This document shows, piece after piece, positions 33,397 to 47,861 of a stretch of DNA of 64,000 nt. Numbering within the stretch: position 1 is the stretch's first letter; each line of letters begins with the position of its first letter. This DNA comes from Kordiimonadales bacterium IMCC3096 (GTDB lineage Bacteria; Pseudomonadota; Alphaproteobacteria; Minwuiales; Minwuiaceae). Made by a program: the position numbers and the translations under genes. Under the pieces are notes generated by a model that did not search any database, was not told where the DNA came from, and saw only the letters and a list, made by a program, of their open reading frames with translations. The stretch lies in contig CP018227.1 in assembly GCA_016865035.1 (NCBI GenBank), positions 466,001-530,000 on the forward strand. Reading direction: 5' to 3'.

Positions 33397-35130
33397 ATGA
33401 GCGACGTATCCGTCGGAGCTGCCGAGCAGTTCCCGGGACGGGAGGACTTTGCCGCCCTCCTGGACGAAACCTATGGCTCCGAAAGCAATCTTGAGGGCTC
33501 CGTCATTCGCGGAACCATCCTGGCCGTCGAGCACGACTTTGTCGTTGTTGACGTCGGCCTGAAGACCGAAGGCCGGGTTCCGCTGAAGGAATTCCAGGTC
33601 GGTGGCCGTCCCGCCGAAGTCAAGGTCGGTGACGAGGTCGAGGTCTATCTGGAGCGGATCGAGAACGGCATGCACGAAGCCGTCATCAGCCGCGACAAGG
33701 CCCGCCGCGAGGAAGCCTGGGCCAAGCTGGAGAAATCCTACGAGGTCAACGAGCGTGTCGAGGGCATGATCTTCGGCCGCGTCAAGGGTGGCTTCACGGT
33801 CGACCTGTCCGGCGCCGTGGCGTTCCTGCCCGGCAGCCAGGTGGACATTCGCCCGATCCGCGACGTGACCCCGCTGATGGGCACGCCGCAGCCGTTCCAG
33901 ATCCTGAAGATGGATCGCCGCCGCGGCAACATCGTGGTGTCGCGCCGCGCCGTTCTGGAAGAGACCCGCGCGGAAGCCCGCAGCGAGCTGATCCAGCGCC
34001 TGGAAGAGGGCATGGTCTGCGACGGCGTGGTCAAGAACATCACCGATTACGGTGCGTTCGTTGACCTGGGCGGTATCGACGGCCTGCTGCATGTCACCGA
34101 CATTTCCTGGCGTCGCGTCAACCACCCGAGCGAGGTGCTGACGATCGGCGAGACCATTAAGGTCCAGGTGATCAAGGTGAACAAGGAAACCCAGCGCATC
34201 AGCCTGGGCATGAAGCAGCTGCAGACGGATCCGTGGGACGGCGTTGCCGCCAAGTATCCGGTCAACGTCCGCTTCGACGGTCGCGTCACGAACATCACCG
34301 ACTATGGTGCGTTCGTGGAGCTGGAGCCGGGTGTCGAAGGTCTGATCCACATCTCCGAGATGTCCTGGACCAAGAAGAACATCCATCCGGGCAAGATCGT
34401 CTCCACCAGCCAGGAAGTCTCCGTGCAGGTGCTGGAGGTCGATCCGGACAAGCGCCGTATCAGCCTTGGCCTGAAGCAGACCATGGACAATCCGTGGGAT
34501 GCCTTTGCCGCCAGCCACCCGAAGGGCACGATCGTCGAGGGCGAGATCAAGAACAAGACCGAGTTCGGTCTGTTCGTCGGCCTGGAAGAAGAGATCGATG
34601 GCATGGTCCACATGTCCGACCTGTCCTGGGATGTCCCGGGCGAGCAGGCCATGAACGAATACGACAAGGGCGACATGGTCCGTGCCGTGGTTCTGGACGT
34701 GGACATCGACAAGGAGCGCATCAGCCTGGGCGTCAAGCAGATCGACAACGATCCGTTTGCCGATGCCAAGTCGATGAAGCGTGGCGAGACCGTCACCTGT
34801 TCCGTCGTGCGTGTCATGGAAGCCGGGCTGGAGGTCGAGACCTCGACCGGTCTGCCGGGCTTCATCCGCAAGAACGACCTCAGCCGTGATCGCTCCGAGC
34901 AGCGTCCCGACCGCTATGCGGTGGGCGACAAGATCGATGCGAACATCATCAGCGTCGACAACAAGACCCGCCGGGTCAACCTGTCGGTCAAGGCGCTGGA
35001 GTTCGCGGAAGAGAAGGAAGCCGTTGCCAACTTCGGTTCCTCCGATTCCGGCGCGAGCCTCGGCGACATCCTCGGTGCGGCCCTGAAGGCCCGCATGGAA
35101 GGTGGCGAGAACGAAGGCGACCAGTCGTAA
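33397..35130 (+). CDS. rpsA: 30S ribosomal protein S1
   Basis: A 577-residue protein with six S1/OB-fold repeats at roughly 36-103, 118-184, 205-273, 290-360, 377-447 and 464-530. The repeats show the KNITDYGAFVDLGG, TNITDYGAFVELE and ISLGMKQL phrases of the RNA-binding copies. S1 docks mRNA onto the small subunit. The ribosome-binding site GAAAGGAA lies eight bases before the ATG. A strong terminator follows (35189-35229). No ihfB gene follows, unlike the usual cmk-rpsA-ihfB order. Confidence 0.98.
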   Translation: MSDVSVGAAEQFPGREDFAALLDETYGSESNLEGSVIRGTILAVEHDFVVVDVGLKTEGRVPLKEFQVGGRPAEVKVGDEVEVYLERIENGMHEAVISRDKARREEAWAKLEKSYEVNERVEGMIFGRVKGGFTVDLSGAVAFLPGSQVDIRPIRDVTPLMGTPQPFQILKMDRRRGNIVVSRRAVLEETRAEARSELIQRLEEGMVCDGVVKNITDYGAFVDLGGIDGLLHVTDISWRRVNHPSEVLTIGETIKVQVIKVNKETQRISLGMKQLQTDPWDGVAAKYPVNVRFDGRVTNITDYGAFVELEPGVEGLIHISEMSWTKKNIHPGKIVSTSQEVSVQVLEVDPDKRRISLGLKQTMDNPWDAFAASHPKGTIVEGEIKNKTEFGLFVGLEEEIDGMVHMSDLSWDVPGEQAMNEYDKGDMVRAVVLDVDIDKERISLGVKQIDNDPFADAKSMKRGETVTCSVVRVMEAGLEVETSTGLPGFIRKNDLSRDRSEQRPDRYAVGDKIDANIISVDNKTRRVNLSVKALEFAEEKEAVANFGSSDSGASLGDILGAALKARMEGGENEGDQS

Positions 35131-35188
35131 GGGATTTCCCTGCGATCACATCGCTGACGAAGATCCCGGCGCTTCGGCGTCGGTGGAG

Positions 35189-35229
35189 CGCCGGGGCCAG
35201 CCATGCTGGCTCCGGCGTTTCCGTTTTTG
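35189..35229 (+). terminator. rho-independent terminator of rpsA
   Basis: A 13-base-pair stem (35189-35201 with 35205-35217, one G-U pair) with a CAT loop is followed by TTTCCGTTTTT. It lies 59 bases after the rpsA stop and ends within a few bases of the next gene's start. Confidence 0.9.
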
Positions 35230-35242
35230 GATGAATGCCAGG

Positions 35243-36223
35243 ATGACACGCGACGATACCGACCTCCGGCCGACGACCTGGGCGCTGTGCGACGGCAAGC
35301 AGGGCATGGTGAACCAGTGTCTCGGCCTGGCTGAGGCGCTGGGCGTCACGCCATCGCTCCGCCAGCTCTCGATCCGGCAGCCATGGCGCAGCCTGCCGCC
35401 GCAACTGTGGCTCGCGCCGCTGAAGTCGCTGGCTGCGGATTCCGACCCCCTCACCCCGCCCTGGCCGGACCTGCTGATCGCGACCGGGCGTCAGACCGTG
35501 GCCCCGGCCATGGCCATCCGACGGCTTTCGGGCGGCGCGACATTCTGCGTCCAGCTCCAGAACCCAGGCGTCTCGCCGGCGCGTTTCGACCTGGTCGTGG
35601 CCCCGCGTCATGACCGCCTGACCGGCCCCAACGTGATCCAGACCTACGGTGCGCTCGGACGTGTGAGCCCGGCCCGGCTTGCCGAGGAAGCGGAACGGTT
35701 CAGGGCCGGCATCGGCGACCTGCCCCGGCCGCATGTGATGGTCTCTCTCGGCGGGGACAACAGCGTCTTCCGCATGACGGAGGCCGTGATCGACCGGCTC
35801 GCGGCGGATCTGCGGCAGCTTGTGGCAGAGACCGGTGCCGGACTGCTGCTCACCCCCTCCCGCCGGACCGACACGGCACTGGGGCAGAGGTTGCGAGCGG
35901 CGCTGCATGACCTGCCGTACCTCTGGCACGACGGCAAGGGCGACAACCCCTACCTCGGCTGGCTGGGACTGGCGGATGCGGTGGTCGTGACCGGCGACTC
36001 CGTCAATATGGTCTCGGAGGCCTGCGCCACCGGAAAGCCGGTCTTCGTGGTCGATCTGGAAGGCGGCAACGCCAAGTTCGCCCGTTTTCACGATGCCCTC
36101 AGCCGCGACGGACTGACCCGCCCCTTCCGGGGAAGGCTGGAAAACTGGACTTACTCTCCGCTGGATGATACCGCGATGGTCGCCAAGGCCGTGCGGGACA
36201 GGCTCGCTGATCGGCCGGCATGA
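35243..36223 (+). CDS. ELM1-family (mitochondrial fission ELM1/DUF1022) protein, predicted GT-B fold
   Basis: About 326 residues. The TTWALCDGKQGMVNQCLGLAEALG opening and the later VMVSLGGDNSVFRMTEAVIDRL and VVTGDSVNMVSEACATGKPVFVVDLEG segments are diagnostic for the family; the last resembles the sugar-nucleotide pocket of GT-B glycosyltransferases. Bacterial members often lie near envelope-glycan genes, and their reaction is not known. The start could also be the ATG at 35231. A strong terminator ends immediately upstream, leaving no separate promoter region. The oxygenase and 648-residue genes follow on the same strand. Confidence 0.85.
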   Translation: MTRDDTDLRPTTWALCDGKQGMVNQCLGLAEALGVTPSLRQLSIRQPWRSLPPQLWLAPLKSLAADSDPLTPPWPDLLIATGRQTVAPAMAIRRLSGGATFCVQLQNPGVSPARFDLVVAPRHDRLTGPNVIQTYGALGRVSPARLAEEAERFRAGIGDLPRPHVMVSLGGDNSVFRMTEAVIDRLAADLRQLVAETGAGLLLTPSRRTDTALGQRLRAALHDLPYLWHDGKGDNPYLGWLGLADAVVVTGDSVNMVSEACATGKPVFVVDLEGGNAKFARFHDALSRDGLTRPFRGRLENWTYSPLDDTAMVAKAVRDRLADRPA

Positions 36224-36242
36224 GCCAGGAGGACAGGGTCCG

Positions 36243-36887
36243 ATGACCCGGATCGAGATGGAGAGGTTGCGGGAAACCCCGCTGAAGACCGACCCTTACA
36301 GCTATGTGATGGTGGAGAACTTCGTCCCCGTCGACACACTCGAATCAATCGCCGAAGACTTTCCCGATCTGAATCTGCCGGGGTCGTTCCCCATCGAGGA
36401 ACTGGAATATGGTCCCCGGTTCGCCGAACTGCTGGAGCGGCTGGCGCAGGATGACTTCCGCGATGCCGTCGCGGAGAAGTTCGACATCGACCTGACCGGC
36501 CGTCCGATGACCTGCACCGTGCGCGGTGCGGCCCAGCGCAAGGACGGGCAGATCCACACGGATTCGAAGACCAAGCTGATCACGGTCCTGATCTACCTCA
36601 ATCCGCCCTGGCAGGCGGAAGGCGGGCGGTTGCGCGTGCTCCGCTCCGGCACCGACCTGAATGACTTCGCGGAGGAGATCGAGCCTTCGTCCGGCAACCT
36701 GCTGATCTTCAAGCGTTCGGATTCCTCCTGGCACGGCCATGAACCGTTCGAGGGCACCCGGCGCTCCATCCAGATCAACTGGGTGACCAGCCAGGCGGTA
36801 GCGGACAAGGAGAAGGCGCGGCACCGCGTCTCCGCCAAGCTGAAGCGTTTCAACCCGTTTGCCAGTCGCGCAAGCAGCATGCGATAG
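36243..36887 (+). CDS. 2-oxoglutarate/Fe(II)-dependent oxygenase (prolyl 4-hydroxylase-like)
   Basis: A 214-residue protein. The iron site is a plausible H-x-D...H triad: His105 and Asp107 in QIHTDSKTK, and a histidine at 164 or 166 in WHGHEPF; Arg173/174 in EGTRRSIQINW would bind the 2-oxoglutarate carboxylate. The double-stranded beta-helix runs from about residue 85 to 185. The substrate may be a protein side chain or a small molecule. It lies 19 bases after the ELM1-family gene and eight bases before the 648-residue gene, so the three are probably co-transcribed. Confidence 0.85.
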   Translation: MTRIEMERLRETPLKTDPYSYVMVENFVPVDTLESIAEDFPDLNLPGSFPIEELEYGPRFAELLERLAQDDFRDAVAEKFDIDLTGRPMTCTVRGAAQRKDGQIHTDSKTKLITVLIYLNPPWQAEGGRLRVLRSGTDLNDFAEEIEPSSGNLLIFKRSDSSWHGHEPFEGTRRSIQINWVTSQAVADKEKARHRVSAKLKRFNPFASRASSMR

Positions 36888-36895
36888 GTCCGACC

Positions 36896-38842
36896 ATGAC
36901 CCTCAATATCCAGACGTTCCGCAATGCCGACCACCGCGCGGGCTGGCGTCCCGGCAACAACTCCGGCGGCCTGACCCTGTTCAAGGCGCTGGGCCACCCG
37001 ATCACCGCCGATCTTGCGAAAGGCTGGCGTGCCGCCCTGGCCGATGCGGGCCGGATCGCGATCTATGATCCGCTGGGCGACGCGGAGACGGTGGACGTGT
37101 TTCATGATCTGGCCGGGCTGTCGCCTGTCGCCTATCTGGTGCAGCAGATCGAGCATGTGGGCCGGGAAGCCTTTGGCCTGACCGCGCGTCCGGTGACCGA
37201 GATCGGTGACGATTTCGATACGCTGCTGATCACCGCCTTCGATGGCGGCAGCTTCCTGCAGCACCTGAAACACATCCTGCCCACCGGCAAGCGCATCGAG
37301 ACGCTGGACCCGCTGCGGCTGCCCGAGACCATGCTGTCACAGCCGAAGGCCTACGTGGATGCGCTGAACTTCGCCACCAACTTCGGCTTCCTGCGCGACG
37401 GCGACGGCCTGCACACCCGCATCGTCACAGCCAACTACTGGTCCGGCTACGGGGCCGAGGATCCGGCACTCTGGTGCCGTCTGATCAGCGGCGACGGCGT
37501 GACGCTGGCGGAGTGGGAAGAGCCTCTGACCCGCCCGTTCGAGACCATCACCATCGACAGCGCCGAGGTACGGCAGCGCTTTGGCCTCGACGATTTCGCG
37601 GGCACCCTCTTCATGCATGCGGTGCGCATCAGGGGGCACGAGATCGTCAAATATGCGCTGGACGTCTATGGCGACGCGGCGGAGCAGTTGAGCTGTACCC
37701 ATGACGCCAATGCCTGGCCCGCCGACCTCTATTCCGGCGTGCCTGCGCCCGACGAGAACGAGGACCTGATCCTCTGGGTGCAGAACAGCCATCCGATCGA
37801 GATTCCCGCCGGGGTGATCGGTTTCAACCTGGTCGGTGGCCAGGATGTCACCACCTACGACGAGAGCGTGCCCCCGTTCGGAACCGTCGCGGTCGATGTC
37901 GGCGCCATGCTGCCCGATGCCCGCTTCCCCGATCAGATCGAACTGCAGGCCGGGCGCTATTTCGTCCGTCCGCGTTATGAGGTGATCCAGCGTGCCTCGG
38001 GCCGCCGCCGCATCGCGCACGCGAACGTGGAACGGGTTGACCTGAAACCGGACCCCGATATCCGGGAGAACGCCCCCCTGTTCGGGAAGGGCTACATCAT
38101 GCCCCTGCCGGTGCTGCCGGTGGATGAGTTCCGGACCTTCTGCCTGCCGACGCCGATGGCGGATACCCAGATGGAACTGCCGATCCGGGCCGACCTGATC
38201 GACGCCAACGGTACCTGCGTTGCCGAGAAGTTCCTCGGCCGGGTCGCGCGCCGCGACTCCATCGCCATCGATGTCGATGCCTGGATGAAGGAAGCCGCCG
38301 CCGAACTGCCCTCCGGCACCGGTCACGTGGAATTCCTCTATGACTTCCGCGATGGTGGCGAGGCGGACGGCTGGCTGCATGCCCTCGCCCGGGTCGAGCA
38401 GCGGGCCAGCGGCCATCGCGCCGAGACCATCTTCGGCGCGCACATGTTCAACATGCCGCTGGTCTTCCGCGACGAGCCGCAGTCCTATTCCGGTCGCCCG
38501 CCGGGCCTCTCCACCCGCCTGTTCCTGCGGCTGGGCGGCGAGACGGCGGATGCCATGTGTCACCTGCTCTACCCGGCGTCCCTGCCCTGGGCGCCGGAGT
38601 CCAGCACCGACCTGAACCTGTTCAGCGGCGCGGGCGAAATGGTGGTGACGAAGCGCATCGCGATTCCCTGCGGTGGCTCCCGCCACTGGCGCGTGTCAGA
38701 GACCTTCGACGCCGCTGACCTGAAGGCCGCCGGTCCGGACGCCTACGTCCAGATCCGCGACACCACCTGTCGCCTGTTCGGCTTCCACGGCCTGCTTCGC
38801 CCCGGCATCGCCTTCAGCCTGGACCACATGTTCGGCTATTGA
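36896..38842 (+). CDS. uncharacterised 648-residue protein
   Basis: I do not recognise this protein. It has no signal peptide, membrane helix or clear catalytic motif. Residues 1-200 look alpha/beta; they contain a GW-rich start (HRAGWRPGNNSGGLTLF), a KALGHPITADLAKGW helix and an IAIYDPLGDAE strand. Residues 200-648 are mostly beta and contain repeated phrases such as DDFAGTLFMHAVRIRGHEIVKYA, PAGVIGFNLVGG and MHLF-type strands. The last 250 residues have paired beta-strand modules that suggest carbohydrate-binding or lipocalin-like sheets. It lies eight bases after the oxygenase gene, so a shared pathway is likely. Coding quality (codon bias, no stop codons) is good. Confidence 0.8.
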   Translation: MTLNIQTFRNADHRAGWRPGNNSGGLTLFKALGHPITADLAKGWRAALADAGRIAIYDPLGDAETVDVFHDLAGLSPVAYLVQQIEHVGREAFGLTARPVTEIGDDFDTLLITAFDGGSFLQHLKHILPTGKRIETLDPLRLPETMLSQPKAYVDALNFATNFGFLRDGDGLHTRIVTANYWSGYGAEDPALWCRLISGDGVTLAEWEEPLTRPFETITIDSAEVRQRFGLDDFAGTLFMHAVRIRGHEIVKYALDVYGDAAEQLSCTHDANAWPADLYSGVPAPDENEDLILWVQNSHPIEIPAGVIGFNLVGGQDVTTYDESVPPFGTVAVDVGAMLPDARFPDQIELQAGRYFVRPRYEVIQRASGRRRIAHANVERVDLKPDPDIRENAPLFGKGYIMPLPVLPVDEFRTFCLPTPMADTQMELPIRADLIDANGTCVAEKFLGRVARRDSIAIDVDAWMKEAAAELPSGTGHVEFLYDFRDGGEADGWLHALARVEQRASGHRAETIFGAHMFNMPLVFRDEPQSYSGRPPGLSTRLFLRLGGETADAMCHLLYPASLPWAPESSTDLNLFSGAGEMVVTKRIAIPCGGSRHWRVSETFDAADLKAAGPDAYVQIRDTTCRLFGFHGLLRPGIAFSLDHMFGY

Positions 38843-38861: not shown

Positions 38862-40454
38862 TCAATCGAAGCGTCTGAACTCGACCAGTCCGTCGCGATT
38901 GACCTGCTCGACCAGACCGACTTCCCAGGTCAGGTAGTCTTCCATCGCCTGCCGGACGCCGCCCTGGTGGTCATAGGGTTTCCACCAGACGTCATCGGTG
39001 TCGGTCAGGGCGCGGTCGAGGCCGGGTTCCATGGGCTGACCGGCAGCGACCCAGGCGGCGGTTCCGCCTTCGAGGACGCGGACGACCAGATCCGGCCGCG
39101 CGGCGCGCAGTTCATGCGCCGCATAGTGGGCCAATCGGCCATCGGGGGAAGTCAGCAGGATCAGCCCGACATGCGCCAGCGCCACCATGCTCTCCGTCAG
39201 GCGTGAACGCACGGTCCAGTAGGCGTCCGGAATGTGTCCCTTGCGGAAGGTCAGGCTCTCCGTCAGGTCAACGACCGCTGCCGGTTCGCCCGAGTCGATG
39301 ACGGCCTGCATCTCGGCGACCGAGAGTGTCTCCGCCGGTCGGAACAGGGCCGGTTCCACATCCACCGGGCCGACTTCCGGCGCGGTCGGCTGTTCGGCCA
39401 GCACATGCACGTCCGTCCAGCCAAGCTGGATCAGCCACGAAGCGGTCATGGTGGCGCGCACGCCATCCTCCGCATCCGCCAGCACGATCCGGGCATTGCG
39501 GGTGGCGACATATTCATCAGTCGCCTGCACCAGTTGTCCGCCCGGTGCGTGATGCGCGCCGGGCCAGTGACCGGCCTCGAACTCCTGCACCGTGCGCACG
39601 TCCAGCAGGCAGGTGGTGCGGTCCGTCTCGGCCTGCCAGCGGGCCACCGTGGCGCTGTCCGTCCGGCGCACACCAAAGCGGTCGGCGACATGCGCGGCAC
39701 GGTCCTTCGCGGCCTGCAGCGCCTCCCCTTCCGGCTCAGGCGCATGTTCGGTCTCCCCGCTGGCGCAGGTCAGTCCCGCCAGTTGCCAGCCCATGGTGCC
39801 ATCCTTCAGCGCCATGACCGGATTGGGAATGCCGGCATTGATCAGCGACTGGCTGCCGATGATGGAACGGGTGCGACCGGCGCAATTGACCACCACGGTG
39901 GTGTTCGGATCAGGGGCGAGCGTATGGACACGATAGACCAGCTCCGCCCCCGGACAGTCCACACCGCCGGGGATCGACATGCGGTTGAATTCGGGCATCG
40001 GACGGCTGTCGAGAATGACGAGGTCCATGCCGCTGTCCTTCATCCGCTGAAGTTCCGCCGCCTCGATACGTGGTGTGTCGTAGTGATGTTCGACGAATTC
40101 ACCGAAAGCCTTCGAGGGGACATTGACGCCGGAGAAGACCTCGTATCCCTCCGCCCGCCAGCCCGCCGTTCCGCCGACCAGCACGGAAACATCCGAATAG
40201 CCCATATCCGCCAGCCGGGTAGCGGCGCGTTCCGCCAGTCCCTTGTCCGACGGGCCATGGTCCGTCACCACCACGGGCACCGTCCGACGCGGCACCATGC
40301 GCGGCGCGCGGAATTCCAGATGGCTCAACGGGATGCAGGCGGCGAGGAACAGATGCTCCCTGGAGAAGGCGCCTTCCTCCCGCACGTCGATCAGGGCGAT
40401 TTCCTGCCCGTCGGTCAGACGGGCGCGCAACGCCGGGGCTGTCAGGCTCTTCAT
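38862..40454 (-). CDS. four-domain rhodanese-like protein with one catalytic cysteine
   Basis: A 530-residue protein with four tandem rhodanese domains. Only domain 2 has a cysteine in the active loop (VVVNCAGRTRS, Cys191). The equivalent positions are Asp65 in domain 1 (VVVTDHGP), Asp327 in domain 3 (VLADAEDGVRA) and Ser436 in domain 4 (LLTSPDGRLA). Conserved structural phrases LIDVREEGAF, LILDSRPMPEF, LLDVRTVQEF and VVDLTESLTF mark each domain. It should transfer sulfane sulfur through Cys191, the others serving as scaffold. The ATG overlaps the cysteine dioxygenase stop, so both genes serve one pathway. Confidence 0.9.
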   Translation of the reverse strand: MKSLTAPALRARLTDGQEIALIDVREEGAFSREHLFLAACIPLSHLEFRAPRMVPRRTVPVVVTDHGPSDKGLAERAATRLADMGYSDVSVLVGGTAGWRAEGYEVFSGVNVPSKAFGEFVEHHYDTPRIEAAELQRMKDSGMDLVILDSRPMPEFNRMSIPGGVDCPGAELVYRVHTLAPDPNTTVVVNCAGRTRSIIGSQSLINAGIPNPVMALKDGTMGWQLAGLTCASGETEHAPEPEGEALQAAKDRAAHVADRFGVRRTDSATVARWQAETDRTTCLLDVRTVQEFEAGHWPGAHHAPGGQLVQATDEYVATRNARIVLADAEDGVRATMTASWLIQLGWTDVHVLAEQPTAPEVGPVDVEPALFRPAETLSVAEMQAVIDSGEPAAVVDLTESLTFRKGHIPDAYWTVRSRLTESMVALAHVGLILLTSPDGRLAHYAAHELRAARPDLVVRVLEGGTAAWVAAGQPMEPGLDRALTDTDDVWWKPYDHQGGVRQAMEDYLTWEVGLVEQVNRDGLVEFRRFD

Positions 40455-41050
40455 GCCGGCATCGGCAGATCGCGAATGCCTTCGGAGGCGGGGAAATGCT
40501 TCCATTCACCGGTCTCGGGCTTGTAGTAGCGGCGATGCTCCAGCTGCTCCAGCGCCAGCCCGTACATGTGGAAATTCAGCACCGGTTCGGAGCCGTCGAT
40601 ATGGATCGAGTGCAGATCGTCCGGCATCAGCGCCAGCCCGGTCCCGGCCTCGACGACGAACTGGTCCTTCTCCGCCACACCGCCATCATCGGCAGGATCA
40701 TAGAGACGGTTCAGTTCCTTGCCTTCCATGCCCACGATCACCGCCCAGGTGGTGTGATCATGCGCCGGGGAGTTGGTGCCGCCCATGGAGAGCTGTGCAT
40801 AGAGCGCGAAACGGTGGTCTGCATCCTCCGACAGGCGATAAAGCGCGTTCTTGCGCTCCGTCGTTGCCTCCGGTGGCGGAAAGTCCTCCAGCGGGAACAG
40901 GTCCCGGCGCTTGGCCAGTTCGATCAGCACATCGCGCATGTCGGCGATGGACTGGCGGGTGACCCCTTGCGCGACCTCGATCGCACGTACCTGCATCATG
41001 GCCGCCTTGACGGCGTTGTCGCGTGCCGCTGCCCGTTCCTTGGGTGTCAT
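40451..41050 (-). CDS. thiol dioxygenase (cysteine dioxygenase family)
   Basis: A 199-residue cupin. The Fe(II) ligands fit His97 and His99 (SPAHDHTTW) and His147 (DDLHSIHI), and the YRLSEDADHRFALYAQ strand supplies the carboxylate-binding arginine. Cysteine dioxygenases turn cysteine into cysteine sulfinate; related bacterial enzymes prefer 3-mercaptopropionate, which cannot be ruled out here. Four-base overlaps couple it with the class-V PLP gene upstream and the rhodanese gene downstream. Confidence 0.9.
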   Translation of the reverse strand: MTPKERAAARDNAVKAAMMQVRAIEVAQGVTRQSIADMRDVLIELAKRRDLFPLEDFPPPEATTERKNALYRLSEDADHRFALYAQLSMGGTNSPAHDHTTWAVIVGMEGKELNRLYDPADDGGVAEKDQFVVEAGTGLALMPDDLHSIHIDGSEPVLNFHMYGLALEQLEHRRYYKPETGEWKHFPASEGIRDLPMPA

Positions 41051-42240
41051 TGTTGCCTCCCAGCTTCCTCCGCGACCGCTTCGACGAAGCGGTCAATCTC
41101 CACTTCAGTATTGTAGTAGTGAACGGAGGCGCGGACGAGTCCGCTGATCCGTCGCCGTTCCATGTCGATCCGCGTGCTGCTCGGTGTGCTGGTGGTGACG
41201 TTCATCTGTCGGGCGAAGAGTGCCTGTTTCACCGCCAGCGGCTCCATGCCGTCAACCGTGAAGGTCGTGATTCCGCAGCGGTCCCGCCCCAGATCGTGCA
41301 CCCGCACACCGGCAGTCTCGGCCAGTCGCGCGCGGAGTTGTTCGGCCAGCCCTGTCACACGTGCCTCGATCTCCGCAATACCCACATCCAGCATGTAATG
41401 GACAGCGACACCCAGTCCGATGCGCCCGGCCTCGTTGAACTCCCAGTTCTCGAACCGCCGGGCACCGGATTGCCACTCCAGCGATTCGCGGGCGGTCCAG
41501 GTGGCCGAGTGCAGGTCGATCACCGGTGGCTCGAACCGCGCGGCGACTTCCGGCCGGGCATAGAGGAAGCCGGTCCCCCTGGGGCCGCGCAGGTACTTCC
41601 GCCCTGTCGCCGTCAGGAAATCACAGCCGATCTGCTGCACATCCAGCACCCGCTGCCCCGCCGACTGGCAGGCATCCAGCAGATAGGGAACACCTGCCGC
41701 ACGGGTCAGCTTTCCTATCTCCGCCGCCGGATTGACCAGCCCGCCGTTGGTCGGGACATGCGTCACCGCAACCAGCGCAACCCCGCCGCCGTCCAGCATC
41801 CGCGACAGCGCCGCCACGTCCAGCACCCCATCCGCATCGCTCGGCACCACCTCGACGGAGACACCCTTCTGCGCCGCGACCTTCAAGTAGGTCAGATAGT
41901 TGGAGGCATATTCCGCCTCCGCCGTCAGGATGCGGTCACCGGGCTTCATGCGGTCGGCCACGGCGAAGAACGCCTGGTTCCACGCCACGGTCGCATTCTC
42001 CATGACGGCCACATCGCCTGCGTCACAGTTCAGGTACCGGGCGATGGCGCTGTAGGTCCGGTCAATGGAGGAACGTGCCCGGTCCGCCGCCTCGTAACCG
42101 CCGATCGCGGCCTCCAGATCCAGATGGTCCTTCACCGACTGCAACACGGGCGCGGGCATCAGCCCGGCGCCCGCATTGTTGAAGTGCAGCACGTTGGCCA
42201 CGCCCGGCGTCTCCGCCCGGCAGCGGTCGATGTCGATCAC
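41047..42240 (-). CDS. class V-fold PLP-dependent enzyme (cysteine desulfurase/C-S lyase/epimerase-like)
   Basis: A 397-residue fold-type I enzyme. LLDACQSAGQ (Asp189) contacts the PLP ring, and the lysine is Lys215 in TATGRKYLRGPRGTG. The HFNNAGAGLMP start and WQSGARRFENWEFN region resemble isopenicillin-N-epimerase-like and C-S lyase members of the class rather than housekeeping IscS. Given a thiol dioxygenase and a rhodanese in the operon, a role in sulfur release or transfer from a cysteine-type substrate is a fair inference. It starts with GTG, overlapping the aldo/keto reductase stop. Confidence 0.86.
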   Translation of the reverse strand: MIDIDRCRAETPGVANVLHFNNAGAGLMPAPVLQSVKDHLDLEAAIGGYEAADRARSSIDRTYSAIARYLNCDAGDVAVMENATVAWNQAFFAVADRMKPGDRILTAEAEYASNYLTYLKVAAQKGVSVEVVPSDADGVLDVAALSRMLDGGGVALVAVTHVPTNGGLVNPAAEIGKLTRAAGVPYLLDACQSAGQRVLDVQQIGCDFLTATGRKYLRGPRGTGFLYARPEVAARFEPPVIDLHSATWTARESLEWQSGARRFENWEFNEAGRIGLGVAVHYMLDVGIAEIEARVTGLAEQLRARLAETAGVRVHDLGRDRCGITTFTVDGMEPLAVKQALFARQMNVTTSTPSSTRIDMERRRISGLVRASVHYYNTEVEIDRFVEAVAEEAGRQQ

Positions 42241-43493: not shown

Positions 43494-46400
43494 TCAGTAA
43501 CGCCGTTCCCATGTCAGGCCGGTGCTGCCACCGCCGCCGCGACCGACCTCCGCATCGACCTTCAGGTTGGGCAGCACGTCGATCTCCACGACAACGCTGC
43601 CGGCCTCCGAGTCCAGCGACTGCTTCGCCCCGACATAGACCCCTTCCCGCACGTACCGGCCGACCGCGACGGAGCCGGAGGAGTCCGGGTCGGCGCCTTC
43701 CTCCACACGCAGGACGTCGAGGCCCACGGCCTCCCGCAGCTTGTCGGTTGCCCCGTCACCGCCGTTGGTCAGGGTATTGATGCTCTGCGCAAGCTGGATT
43801 GCCTCCAGCGGGCTCATGGATTGGGCCGACTTGTCGAACAGCAGACGCGGCAGCACCTCATCCTCCGGCAGTTCGGGGGTCGAGGAGAAGGCAATCTCGG
43901 GCTTCGCCGGGCTGCCGGAGATGCTGATCGTGCCTTCCATGTCACCGCTCTGGCGGGTCAGCGCGATGTTGAAGCGCGGTTGCATGTCCCCGGTCAGCCC
44001 GATCTCCCCGGTCGAGACCTGAAAGTCCTTGCCCAGCAGGGAGAGATGACCGCGCACGACGCCGATGTTCACATCCACCTGCGGTTCCGGCAGGTGGCCC
44101 ATTACCGTGACCTTGCCGCTCCATTCACTGTCGAGGCCCCGACCGCGCACGAACAGCCGCGCGGGGGCATCGACCACCACATCCAGCGCCACGGGCAGTT
44201 CATCCACCGGTTCCTCGCCGGAATCACCGGTTGGCGCGGCATCGCTGTCCCGCGCCAGTTCGATATCGACAACACTGGGCGGCAGGTTATCGGTTATGAG
44301 GCGGATCTCGCCCTCGTCAATCGTCGTCCGGTTCACCACCTGCACCAGACTGCCGTCCCAGGTGACATCGGTATTGCCGGAAACCAGGATCGTCGCCTCC
44401 TCCCGACTGACCGCGCGCAGCCTGTCGAGTGTGACCTTCACGCTGGCCCGCCGATCTGCGCCCAGCAACCGCGCCGTGCCACTGCCGCTCACGCTTCCGC
44501 CCGCCGGATCGACAGCGGACAGTTCAAGTTCTCCCACACCGCTGTCGGCGAAGGCCGTGGTCAGTGTGAGGCGTTCCAGGATCGTGCCGGTCATCAGGTT
44601 CTCGTAGCGGCCATCGGAGATCGCGACGTTACCCTGCATGACGGGAGCCCCGATGGTGCCGGAAACATCCACGGCAACACTGGCCGTGCCTTCAAGCAGG
44701 TGATCCCCCTCCGGCAGCAACTGCATCAGCTTTGCCAGGCTTCCGGTCCAGTCGATGCTGCCCTGCAATGCGCCGCCCGGTGCGGGTTCCGGCAGGAATG
44801 TCCCCTGCCCCTGTCGGACCTCCGCACTGACTTCTGCCACCAGGGGGGATTCGAATGGACCTGTAATGCGGGTACCGGCCCGCGCGGTCTGCCCGTTCCA
44901 GTTGGCATCGAGCGCGATGTCGAAGCTTGCACCGATCTCGTCGCCGGGGGGGTGCAGGTCATCAACCTGCACCGACAGCCTGGCCTTCTCATCCGCCGCC
45001 GTGCTGTCAAAGCGCACATCGGCTGCCAGCATGCCCTGCAGACCGCCAACGCCGCCAATCGCGGCCAGCGGTCCCAGCGGCAGAGCACTGATCCGGGCCG
45101 TGGCGTCCAGCAGGTCAGGCGCGTAGCGCGCATCTGCAATCACTTCACCGCCAAAGGAGGTGCCCAGCCGCAGCCCTGAAAGCACGATGGTCTCACCCAC
45201 CCGGACACTGAATGGCTGCACGGCCTCGATGGCCGCTTCATTGCCTTCGAGACGCAGGTTCTCGACATCGATCAATGGGCCTTCCGCACCGGCAAGATCA
45301 GCCACGATACGGGTGGTCAGGCGCGCTGGTTCAGGTTCGGTCGCAGACACGCTGAGGTCGATGGTCGGGCGTGAGAAGGTACCTCCGATCCGGGCCTCCG
45401 TCTTCCCGATCCGTGCCCCATCTGCCCGAATGTCCTGCACGGTCAGATCACCCTGCATGGTCGGCGTCGGAGAGAGCAATGCCGCGAGGTGCATTGCCAG
45501 ACGCACCTCCGCCACGGTCGCGCCCGCGTCGGTGGCTTCCAGACGCTGCAGCGTCACATCGATGTCCGCGCCGTGATCCTGTCCTTCGGGCTGCACCGTC
45601 ACGGTCGCATTCAGGGCACCGGCAAGCGGGACGTCGAACAGGGCGGCGATACGCGAAAGCTCGTCACTTGCCGCCGTCAGATTGGCGCGATAGCCCGGTG
45701 TGCTCAGGTCAGCGGAGGCGTTGCCCTCCAGCGTCAGCCCGGCGAGCGAGACGGAGAGCGACGGCACGTCAGCCTGCTGGAACGCATTGCGCATGGCGAG
45801 CCGCAGATCGACATCCAGCACCTCCTCACCCCACTGGCCGTCCAGGCTCAGGTTGCCGGACGGATCGGTGGCCAGATCACTGAAGTCATAGGCCAGCACA
45901 GGCCCGGCGAGTCTGATTTCGTCACTGCCGACGGCGGCCAGTTCCAGGCGGCCCTGGGTGCGCGGGGCGTCCGCCGTGCCGGAGACCCTGCCGCGCAGGC
46001 GGATGGGGCCTTCGATCAGCACCCCTTCCGGCACCAGACCGCCCGGGACCGCCGCCATGTCCAGCCCGTACTCACCCTTCACCGAACCGGCGGCATCCAG
46101 GCCCGCATCAATGGTCAGGGCAGGCCCGGACGCGGTGGCAACCGAGAGATCGAGCATCGCCGCACCTGCCGCAAGCGGCCGTGCAGTAGCTGTCAGCTTC
46201 ACATTCGGCCCGACGGCCGACTGGATCACGTCGTCGATGAACGAGAGACCGGTGAGACCGCCTGCCAGACGTATCTCACCGCCACCTTCCGGGACAACAC
46301 CATCCGCGGTGACGACCAGCCGGGCACTGCCCTGACGGAGGGCCGCATCAGCGCCGGGCAGCTTCGACAGCTCCGGCACCAGCAGCACGAGTTCCCCATC

Positions 46401-47861
46401 GATCTTCGGCTCCGGCAGGGGCGTCGAGACGTCGCCGGACAGGCCAAACGCCGCCGCCGTCAGATCCAGGGCCGTGACACGGGCCTGTGCGGCGCCTGCC
46501 GTCACATGCGCCGTCAGACGGGGCGACGGCCCAAGCAGGACATCCAGTCCGGGATCGCCGAGCGATGGTTCGGTCAGATCGACGGCGACATCCCCGTCGA
46601 AGTCGGCGTCCTTCAGGCCCCCGGTGACCTTCAGGCTGATGGCTCGTGCGCCCATGTCACCGAACGCGGGCTCGCGAAGGTCTGCCGCAACCGAAAGATC
46701 AGGACTGTCCAGCGCGCCACTGACCTGGGCCTCGATCCGCGCGGCACCGAATGTTGCACCGGCCAGCAGCGCGTCCAGCGCAGGATGGCGATGCACATCC
46801 ACGGTGCTGCCAAGATTGACCGTCCCGGCATCGAGATCGACTGAACCGCTGGCACTGAGGGAGGCAGAAGCCGTCGAGACTTCCAGACGGGCAAGCTGCA
46901 GTTCGGTTTCATCGGCCCCGTGCGCCGCCAGTCGGAACGGGATCGTCTCCCCGGTCAGGTCGGTCGGCACGGGTGCCGCCGCCAGCAGATTGGCAACACC
47001 ATCCGCATCCAGTGCCCAGCCCGTCGCCGGGTCGGCGCTGAGTCGCAGGCCCAGCAGCAGGTCGGCAACACGCTCCACCGTCAGCGAGAGGTCTATGGTG
47101 GCGGAACCGAAGGGACCGCCCCCCTCCACATTCAGATACAGGCGTTCATCGGTGGTGATCCCCAGCGGCTCCGACAAGGGCGCAAGGACAGGCAGGTCGG
47201 CGGCCATGGTGATCCGCGACTGCCGCGTGCCGAAGTCCAGCGCCACGTCCACGCGGGCGAAGCTCGCCTTCAGATCCAGTGGCTCGACATTCAGGGTGAC
47301 GCGCTGATCGGTGCCGGCATCACGTACCGAACCTTTGACCGAGAAACGGGCGCCGCCCGGCACCAGGTCATCGCCCAGCGACAGGGCATCGACGCGCAGC
47401 AGGTCAAGCCTTACGGGCAGCGGCGCACGCGGCCATTCAAAGGATTCCAGCAGGGGTGTCGGATCGTCCGGTTCCGGCTCCACCGGCACGGAACCAACCG
47501 GCGCGCGACTGACATCGACGCGCGCGACAGTCAGGCTCTCGACCGTCAGGGCACCGCCGAGCAGCGCACCCAGATCCCAGTCCAGCGCCAGGTCATCCAG
47601 CGTCAGCCAGACGCCCTCCCCGTCGGCCATCTGCAGACGGCCCAGATGGATCACACCTGCATCGTCACGGCGAAAGCCGCTGGCCGCGATCTCCATTTCG
47701 CCCGGTGTGCTCGCCGCCGCCAGCCCCTGATCCAGCGCCGCGGTCCAGCTATCCTCCCCCGCCACCTCCAGAAACCAGAACAGGCCGACCAGAAGCAGCA
47801 GGACCGGTGTCAGCAGCACCGCCAGCGACCAGAGCAGTATCTTGCGCAGACGACGCCACAT
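43494..47861 (-). CDS. tamB: TamB: inner-membrane anchored translocation/assembly and lipid-transport protein
   Basis: A 1455-residue protein. An N-terminal membrane helix (about 8-33) anchors it to the inner membrane; the rest is a long alternating beta pattern rich in G, D, L and V that forms a hydrophobic groove across the periplasm. The C-terminal 350 residues are the DUF490 domain, ending in the LTWERRY motif close to the outer membrane. TamB works with TamA in outer-membrane protein assembly and also in phospholipid transport. Its ATG overlaps the tamA stop by one base. Confidence 0.92.
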   Translation of the reverse strand: MWRRLRKILLWSLAVLLTPVLLLLVGLFWFLEVAGEDSWTAALDQGLAAASTPGEMEIAASGFRRDDAGVIHLGRLQMADGEGVWLTLDDLALDWDLGALLGGALTVESLTVARVDVSRAPVGSVPVEPEPDDPTPLLESFEWPRAPLPVRLDLLRVDALSLGDDLVPGGARFSVKGSVRDAGTDQRVTLNVEPLDLKASFARVDVALDFGTRQSRITMAADLPVLAPLSEPLGITTDERLYLNVEGGGPFGSATIDLSLTVERVADLLLGLRLSADPATGWALDADGVANLLAAAPVPTDLTGETIPFRLAAHGADETELQLARLEVSTASASLSASGSVDLDAGTVNLGSTVDVHRHPALDALLAGATFGAARIEAQVSGALDSPDLSVAADLREPAFGDMGARAISLKVTGGLKDADFDGDVAVDLTEPSLGDPGLDVLLGPSPRLTAHVTAGAAQARVTALDLTAAAFGLSGDVSTPLPEPKIDGELVLLVPELSKLPGADAALRQGSARLVVTADGVVPEGGGEIRLAGGLTGLSFIDDVIQSAVGPNVKLTATARPLAAGAAMLDLSVATASGPALTIDAGLDAAGSVKGEYGLDMAAVPGGLVPEGVLIEGPIRLRGRVSGTADAPRTQGRLELAAVGSDEIRLAGPVLAYDFSDLATDPSGNLSLDGQWGEEVLDVDLRLAMRNAFQQADVPSLSVSLAGLTLEGNASADLSTPGYRANLTAASDELSRIAALFDVPLAGALNATVTVQPEGQDHGADIDVTLQRLEATDAGATVAEVRLAMHLAALLSPTPTMQGDLTVQDIRADGARIGKTEARIGGTFSRPTIDLSVSATEPEPARLTTRIVADLAGAEGPLIDVENLRLEGNEAAIEAVQPFSVRVGETIVLSGLRLGTSFGGEVIADARYAPDLLDATARISALPLGPLAAIGGVGGLQGMLAADVRFDSTAADEKARLSVQVDDLHPPGDEIGASFDIALDANWNGQTARAGTRITGPFESPLVAEVSAEVRQGQGTFLPEPAPGGALQGSIDWTGSLAKLMQLLPEGDHLLEGTASVAVDVSGTIGAPVMQGNVAISDGRYENLMTGTILERLTLTTAFADSGVGELELSAVDPAGGSVSGSGTARLLGADRRASVKVTLDRLRAVSREEATILVSGNTDVTWDGSLVQVVNRTTIDEGEIRLITDNLPPSVVDIELARDSDAAPTGDSGEEPVDELPVALDVVVDAPARLFVRGRGLDSEWSGKVTVMGHLPEPQVDVNIGVVRGHLSLLGKDFQVSTGEIGLTGDMQPRFNIALTRQSGDMEGTISISGSPAKPEIAFSSTPELPEDEVLPRLLFDKSAQSMSPLEAIQLAQSINTLTNGGDGATDKLREAVGLDVLRVEEGADPDSSGSVAVGRYVREGVYVGAKQSLDSEAGSVVVEIDVLPNLKVDAEVGRGGGGSTGLTWERRY

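Follow-up and report, generated by a model that had tools for sequence, protein, structure and literature searches.

A recurrent ELM1, oxygenase and P648 gene module and its candidate role in the lipopolysaccharide inner core

Two reports from 2024–2025 characterized the protein KdoT: an ELM1-like protein of Acinetobacter baumannii is required for the addition of a third 3-deoxy-D-manno-oct-2-ulosonic acid (Kdo) residue (PMC10936431), and the ELM1-like A. baumannii protein 2903 is a CMP-Kdo transferase (KdoT) in which R180 of an SRRT motif is important and which is complemented by a Rickettsia homologue (PMC12856342). Another described enzyme, the Kdo 3-hydroxylase KdoO (PF11004), is a 2-oxoglutarate (2OG)-Fe(II) oxygenase whose hydroxylation target is an inner-core sugar. 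Members of the ASRAH superfamily are predicted sugar binders whose multidomain forms are dyads or tetrads, and sugar binding is predicted rather than demonstrated even for the Anabaena sensory rhodopsin transducer (ASRT) (PMC2739507). Here, we analyzed a window of 64,000 nucleotides (G000:C1:466001-530000) within a single-contig 4.29-Mb genome, the nearest named relatives of which belong to the alphaproteobacterium Minwuia (judged by P648, which shares 91–97% identity with its Minwuia and Minwuia-like counterparts). Three adjacent genes of this window code for a member of the ELM1 family, a 2OG-Fe(II) oxygenase, and a 648-residue protein (hereafter, P648). These genes are a real, conserved module, of which our literature searches found no description, and we consider it somewhat likely that they act as one system that builds or modifies the Kdo-containing inner core of lipopolysaccharide (LPS).

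Gene structure and recurrence of the trio

The three open reading frames are located on the + strand and are separated by 19 bases (ELM1/oxygenase) and 8 bases (oxygenase/P648), in agreement with a preliminary description made from the letters of the window:

35243–36223, + strand: ELM1/KdoT-like candidate GT-B glycosyltransferase (PF06258), 326 amino acids, without a transmembrane segment; ATG start at 35243, with an in-frame ATG at 35231 also possible
36243–36887, + strand: 2OG-Fe(II) oxygenase (PF13640), 214 amino acids; ATG start at 36243, preceded by an AGGAGGA ribosome site
36896–38842, + strand: P648, 648 amino acids, probably cytosolic, from an unannotated and highly conserved family; ATG start at 36896

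No transmembrane stretch was found in any of the three proteins. The genes are real, showing 91–97% identity in other Minwuia genomes and ~50% identity over their full length across classes.

A genome scan with P648 recovered at least 339 relatives spanning Alpha-, Beta-, and Gammaproteobacteria, and among the best 80 of the 339 loci, ELM1 was present near P648 in 65 and the oxygenase in 40. Because these 80 loci are the ones nearest to the query, we then used a less biased sample of 190 alphaproteobacterial genomes spread over families, which contained P648 in 38, ELM1 (PF06258) in 153, and the oxygenase in 31 genomes. All 38 P648 genomes encode ELM1 (p about 1e-4) and 25 encode the oxygenase (Fisher p about 2e-16), both values being uncorrected for phylogeny. 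Within 1 kb of P648 and on the same strand, ELM1 was found in 28 and the oxygenase in 17 of the 38. Every possible pair is also found with the remaining gene absent within 3 kb: ELM1-P648 in 15 genomes, ELM1-oxygenase in three (G014, G043, and G147), and oxygenase-P648 in one (G011). ELM1 and oxygenase genes are adjacent, with P648 elsewhere in the genome, at loci L096 and L097. A phylum-wide sample yielded P648 in 4 out of 398 genomes, each from the class to which the window belongs, and added no lineages. More distant P648 relatives (L102:8551-10509, 43% identity; L103:8317-10266, 49% identity) have a distant ELM1 (30% and 40%, respectively) upstream, and the module oxygenase is not nearby.

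The surroundings of the trio, for which neighboring genes were called with a codon model, vary among lineages. In Minwuia, the trio is found next to rpsA, whereas many Rhodospirillales-like genomes carry carA-carB-greA-lrp upstream and trxB-lysR downstream, and Betaproteobacteria (Sulfuriferula, Methylophilaceae) show a dnaJ-dnaK-grpE context with the order oxygenase-ELM1-P648 (carB, greA, trxB, lrp, dnaK, and grpE are presumptive names that we assigned by reading the sequences rather than from profile searches). In Gammaproteobacteria, P648 lies inside some LPS core clusters and once directly after waaA. For example, ELM1-P648 is followed in L021 by genes for a methyltransferase, a GT4 enzyme, and a GT9 heptosyltransferase, with GT1, GT9, and a lipid A acyltransferase further on, and in L068 by genes for a GT4-type enzyme, an acyltransferase, a glycosyltransferase, an O-antigen ligase, and a GT2 enzyme. 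In the gammaproteobacterial bin L041, waaA (Kdo transferase; L041:2114-3385, + strand) precedes P648 by 99 bp on the same strand, and neither ELM1 nor the module oxygenase was found in this bin.

Conservation of the carAB-greA-lrp...trxB block around the trio in many Alphaproteobacteria would fit a set of unrelated genes kept side by side solely by a gene order inherited from a common ancestor. However, the linkage is kept in at least four unrelated surroundings, with changes in order and with splits into all possible pairs. Given these differing contexts and the pairs without a third gene, shared ancestral order is an insufficient explanation, and we regard it as very improbable. The comparative genomics, in which the trio recurs in relatives, strongly supports the shared pathway that the preliminary description had proposed from close spacing, and the protein that it had left unrecognized, P648, matched no known enzyme.

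ELM1 and oxygenase families

The ELM1 protein exceeds the Pfam cut-off for PF06258 (E=7.6e-106; 354 bits, cut-off 27). Residues H123-D124 and S206-R207-R208-T209 are invariant in 65/65 module ELM1 proteins, the latter corresponding to a motif of KdoT:

35858–35869, + strand: codons of the SRRT motif (S206–T209, including R207 and R208), counterpart of the SRRT on the donor side of A. baumannii KdoT; invariant in 65/65

Like KdoT, the module ELM1 belongs to PF06258, carries SRRT, and is soluble. LPS-core genes neighbor it in some relatives of the module (L021 and L068) but not in the window. The differences concern partners: KdoT works with GnaT in an Acinetobacter core locus, and the accessible portions of the KdoT reports mention neither a P648 nor an oxygenase partner. 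Conservation of the SRRT motif favors, rather than proves, KdoT-type CMP-Kdo transfer by ELM1. The label "unknown reaction" that the preliminary description attached to this GT-B glycosyltransferase-like candidate has become outdated because KdoT has since been characterized. The source genome also encodes waaA.

The oxygenase matched only PF13640 (E=8.3e-12, over the cut-off) and PF13661 in Pfam. Its H-x-D...H iron site, already seen in the preliminary description, consists of H105-x-D107...H164 and is invariant, together with the 2OG-binding R173, in 41/41 relatives. The nearest solved relatives in a profile search of Protein Data Bank (PDB) sequences were 9blq, a putative hydroxylase (E 4e-16), and 9ei6, a prolyl 4-hydroxylase alpha subunit domain-containing protein (E 1e-12), matched over ~120 residues. 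Gene context suggests an inner-core sugar as the substrate, which would make the reaction type that of KdoO, although the module oxygenase belongs to a different family (PF13640). A family search that matched PF11004 (KdoO) in 4/190 alphaproteobacteria did not find it in the source genome. The sole PADLOC match was to a generic 2OG model, and a defense-system reading was rejected. In Azospirillum and relatives (L020, L026, L035, L057, L076, and L077), a second oxygenase, ~27% identical to the module oxygenase, is located near P648, on its upstream side; in most cases it forms a tandem with the module oxygenase, and it retains an H-x-D...H site.

The P648 family and its predicted structure

Sequence-only searches of Pfam, NCBIfam, PADLOC, PHROGs, PDB sequences, and plasmids returned no match for P648, and a profile search gave no match to PF07100. 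An AlphaFold2 model based on 53 sequences (mean pLDDT 90.5, pTM 0.90) provides a predicted architecture for the protein, for which the preliminary description had proposed structure prediction and a fold search:

36968–37360, + strand: P648 residues 25–155, Rossmann-like alpha/beta domain in the model; fold matches weak
37361–38443, + strand: P648 residues 156–516, three beta-sandwich domains with the strand-helix-strand order of the last domain, from model secondary structure
38492–38839, + strand: P648 residues 533–648, beta-sandwich of ASRT/TM1070 (ASRAH) fold in the predicted model, predicted sugar-binding type

From residue 156 onward, the model contains four domains, each with 4–5 strands, a helix, and 3 strands, and the internal repeat is weak at the sequence level, with E=2e-4 across 34 columns between the third and fourth domains. 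When modeled by itself (pLDDT 89.1), the last domain aligned with Thermotoga TM1070 (1nc7; Z 10.2, 103 residues, 3.3 Å) and with ASRT (Z 8.8; next unrelated entries 6.6), and Foldseek ranked TM1070/ASRT at the top with a probability of 1.00, though with E about 0.006. These comparisons support an ASRT-type eight-stranded beta-sandwich fold for the modeled last domain. For the other three sandwich domains, the same fold is only suggested. The four sandwiches recall ASRAH tetrads, whereas P648 differs from ASRT/TM1070 in having no significant sequence similarity to them, in its added Rossmann-like head, and in its LPS contexts; homology between P648 and ASRT is unproven. Foldseek matches of the whole model to complement/macroglobulin structures were rejected as generic beta-sandwich matches (TM ~0.1, rmsd ~20 Å).

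At an identity of roughly 52%, ~100 columns of the P648 alignment are invariant, including H248, K252, D256, C267-H269-D270-N272, R358-R360-E362, H375, E379-R380, H477, H495, H516, R621-D622, and D643-H644. Because many of these residues are polar, catalysis is possible, and P648 may be an enzyme that produces, transfers, or modifies a core sugar, with an active site in the Rossmann-like head or among the invariant His, Arg, Asp, and Cys residues and with ELM1 and the oxygenase working on that glycan at an earlier or later step. The waaA-P648 pair of L041, where the other two genes were not found, would also fit such an enzyme. However, P648 showed no sequence match to any enzyme family in the libraries searched, its Rossmann matches are weak (Z 3–4.5), and a nucleotide-binding glycine motif is not visible, which together leave an enzymatic P648 doubtful in our view. 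A class I methyltransferase was rejected as the family of residues 25–155 on the same Z values, with no recognizable glycine motif for S-adenosylmethionine (SAM) or nicotinamide adenine dinucleotide (NAD).

Candidate target, locus setting, and implications

The preliminary description had suggested glycosylation plus hydroxylation of a common envelope or protein target. An envelope target is compatible with the KdoT-type ELM1 and the LPS-core contexts, and the LPS inner core is probably the substrate on which the trio acts; the protein-hydroxylation part found no direct support. Several observations weigh against an inner-core role. PF06258 is found in most of the sampled alphaproteobacteria (153/190), mostly without P648, and more distant ELM1 proteins that have no adjoining P648 carry SRRT as well, so neither is diagnostic of the module. 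The oxygenase is missing from about one third (13/38) of the genomes with P648. It cannot be equated with KdoO because it matches PF13640/PF13661 and not PF11004, and the solved structures nearest to it are prolyl-hydroxylase-like. A profile comparison of the P648 domains with ASRT (three ASRT sequences) was not significant (probability ~1%). The trio of the window has no adjacent LPS gene, and P648 adjoins flagellar-type genes in L047, L050, and L070; the L047 and L070 genomes place their ELM1-oxygenase pairs elsewhere (L097 and L096, respectively).

The flagellar-type neighbors of P648 encode a FliI-like ATPase, an SRP54-type GTPase, and a ParA-like ATPase, and a PMT_2-type glycosyltransferase gene is directly upstream of P648 in L047, with a related gene in L070. 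Together with the prolyl-hydroxylase-like relatives of the oxygenase, these neighbors would be in keeping with a trio that glycosylates and hydroxylates a protein, e.g., a flagellar or surface protein. We consider such a protein target unlikely: direct biochemistry in Acinetobacter ties ELM1 to LPS, three other genomes place P648 in an LPS cluster or beside waaA, the trio has no conserved neighbor that could encode a target protein, and the 2OG oxygenase superfamily also includes enzymes with small-molecule substrates.

For an inner-core target, we infer the reactions, substrates, order of steps, and role of P648 as follows. The module would act at the inner membrane, on its cytosolic side, where a KdoT-type ELM1 using CMP-Kdo would attach a Kdo-like residue, either following WaaA or alongside it. 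Using Fe(II), O2, and 2OG, the oxygenase would hydroxylate either the residue added by ELM1 or a neighboring core sugar, so that LPS would be hydroxylated in a further way in addition to those of KdoO and LpxO. P648 may recognize the nascent Kdo-lipid A glycan through its tandem sandwiches of sugar-binding type and its Rossmann-like head, and may hold or regulate ELM1 and the oxygenase. More tentatively, the product could be an undescribed inner-core sugar, an octulosonic acid added by a KdoT-type enzyme and hydroxylated by a PF13640 oxygenase rather than by KdoO, with P648 as the founding member of a new cytosolic family for recognition or modification of the LPS core in Alpha-, Beta-, and Gammaproteobacteria.

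Within the window, the trio is flanked as follows:

33397–35130: rpsA, upstream of the trio, six S1 domains (Pfam)
35185–35221, + strand: intrinsic terminator-like hairpin (stem of 17 bp, T-rich tail) separating rpsA from the trio, from a consensus scan only
38862–40505, – strand: four-domain rhodanese protein, downstream of the trio on the opposite strand
40451–41050, – strand: 199-residue protein with no Pfam match, by eye resembling a cysteine-dioxygenase-type cupin
41047–42240, – strand: class V aminotransferase
43494–47861, – strand: 1455-residue protein, by eye resembling a TamB-like outer-membrane biogenesis protein

The hairpin suggests that the trio forms a transcription unit apart from rpsA. 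The rhodanese, cupin-like, and aminotransferase genes are a possible sulfur-metabolism cluster.

ELM1-family proteins are found in ~80% of the sampled alphaproteobacterial genomes and also in plant mitochondria, and to our knowledge, the reaction of a bacterial ELM1 had not been established until KdoT. By connecting ELM1 with two partners as well as with LPS genes, the module offers a testable route to ELM1 function in Alphaproteobacteria, as well as a route to a possible further hydroxylation of the LPS inner core. It also gives a way into the function of P648, a large protein family without annotation in the libraries searched.

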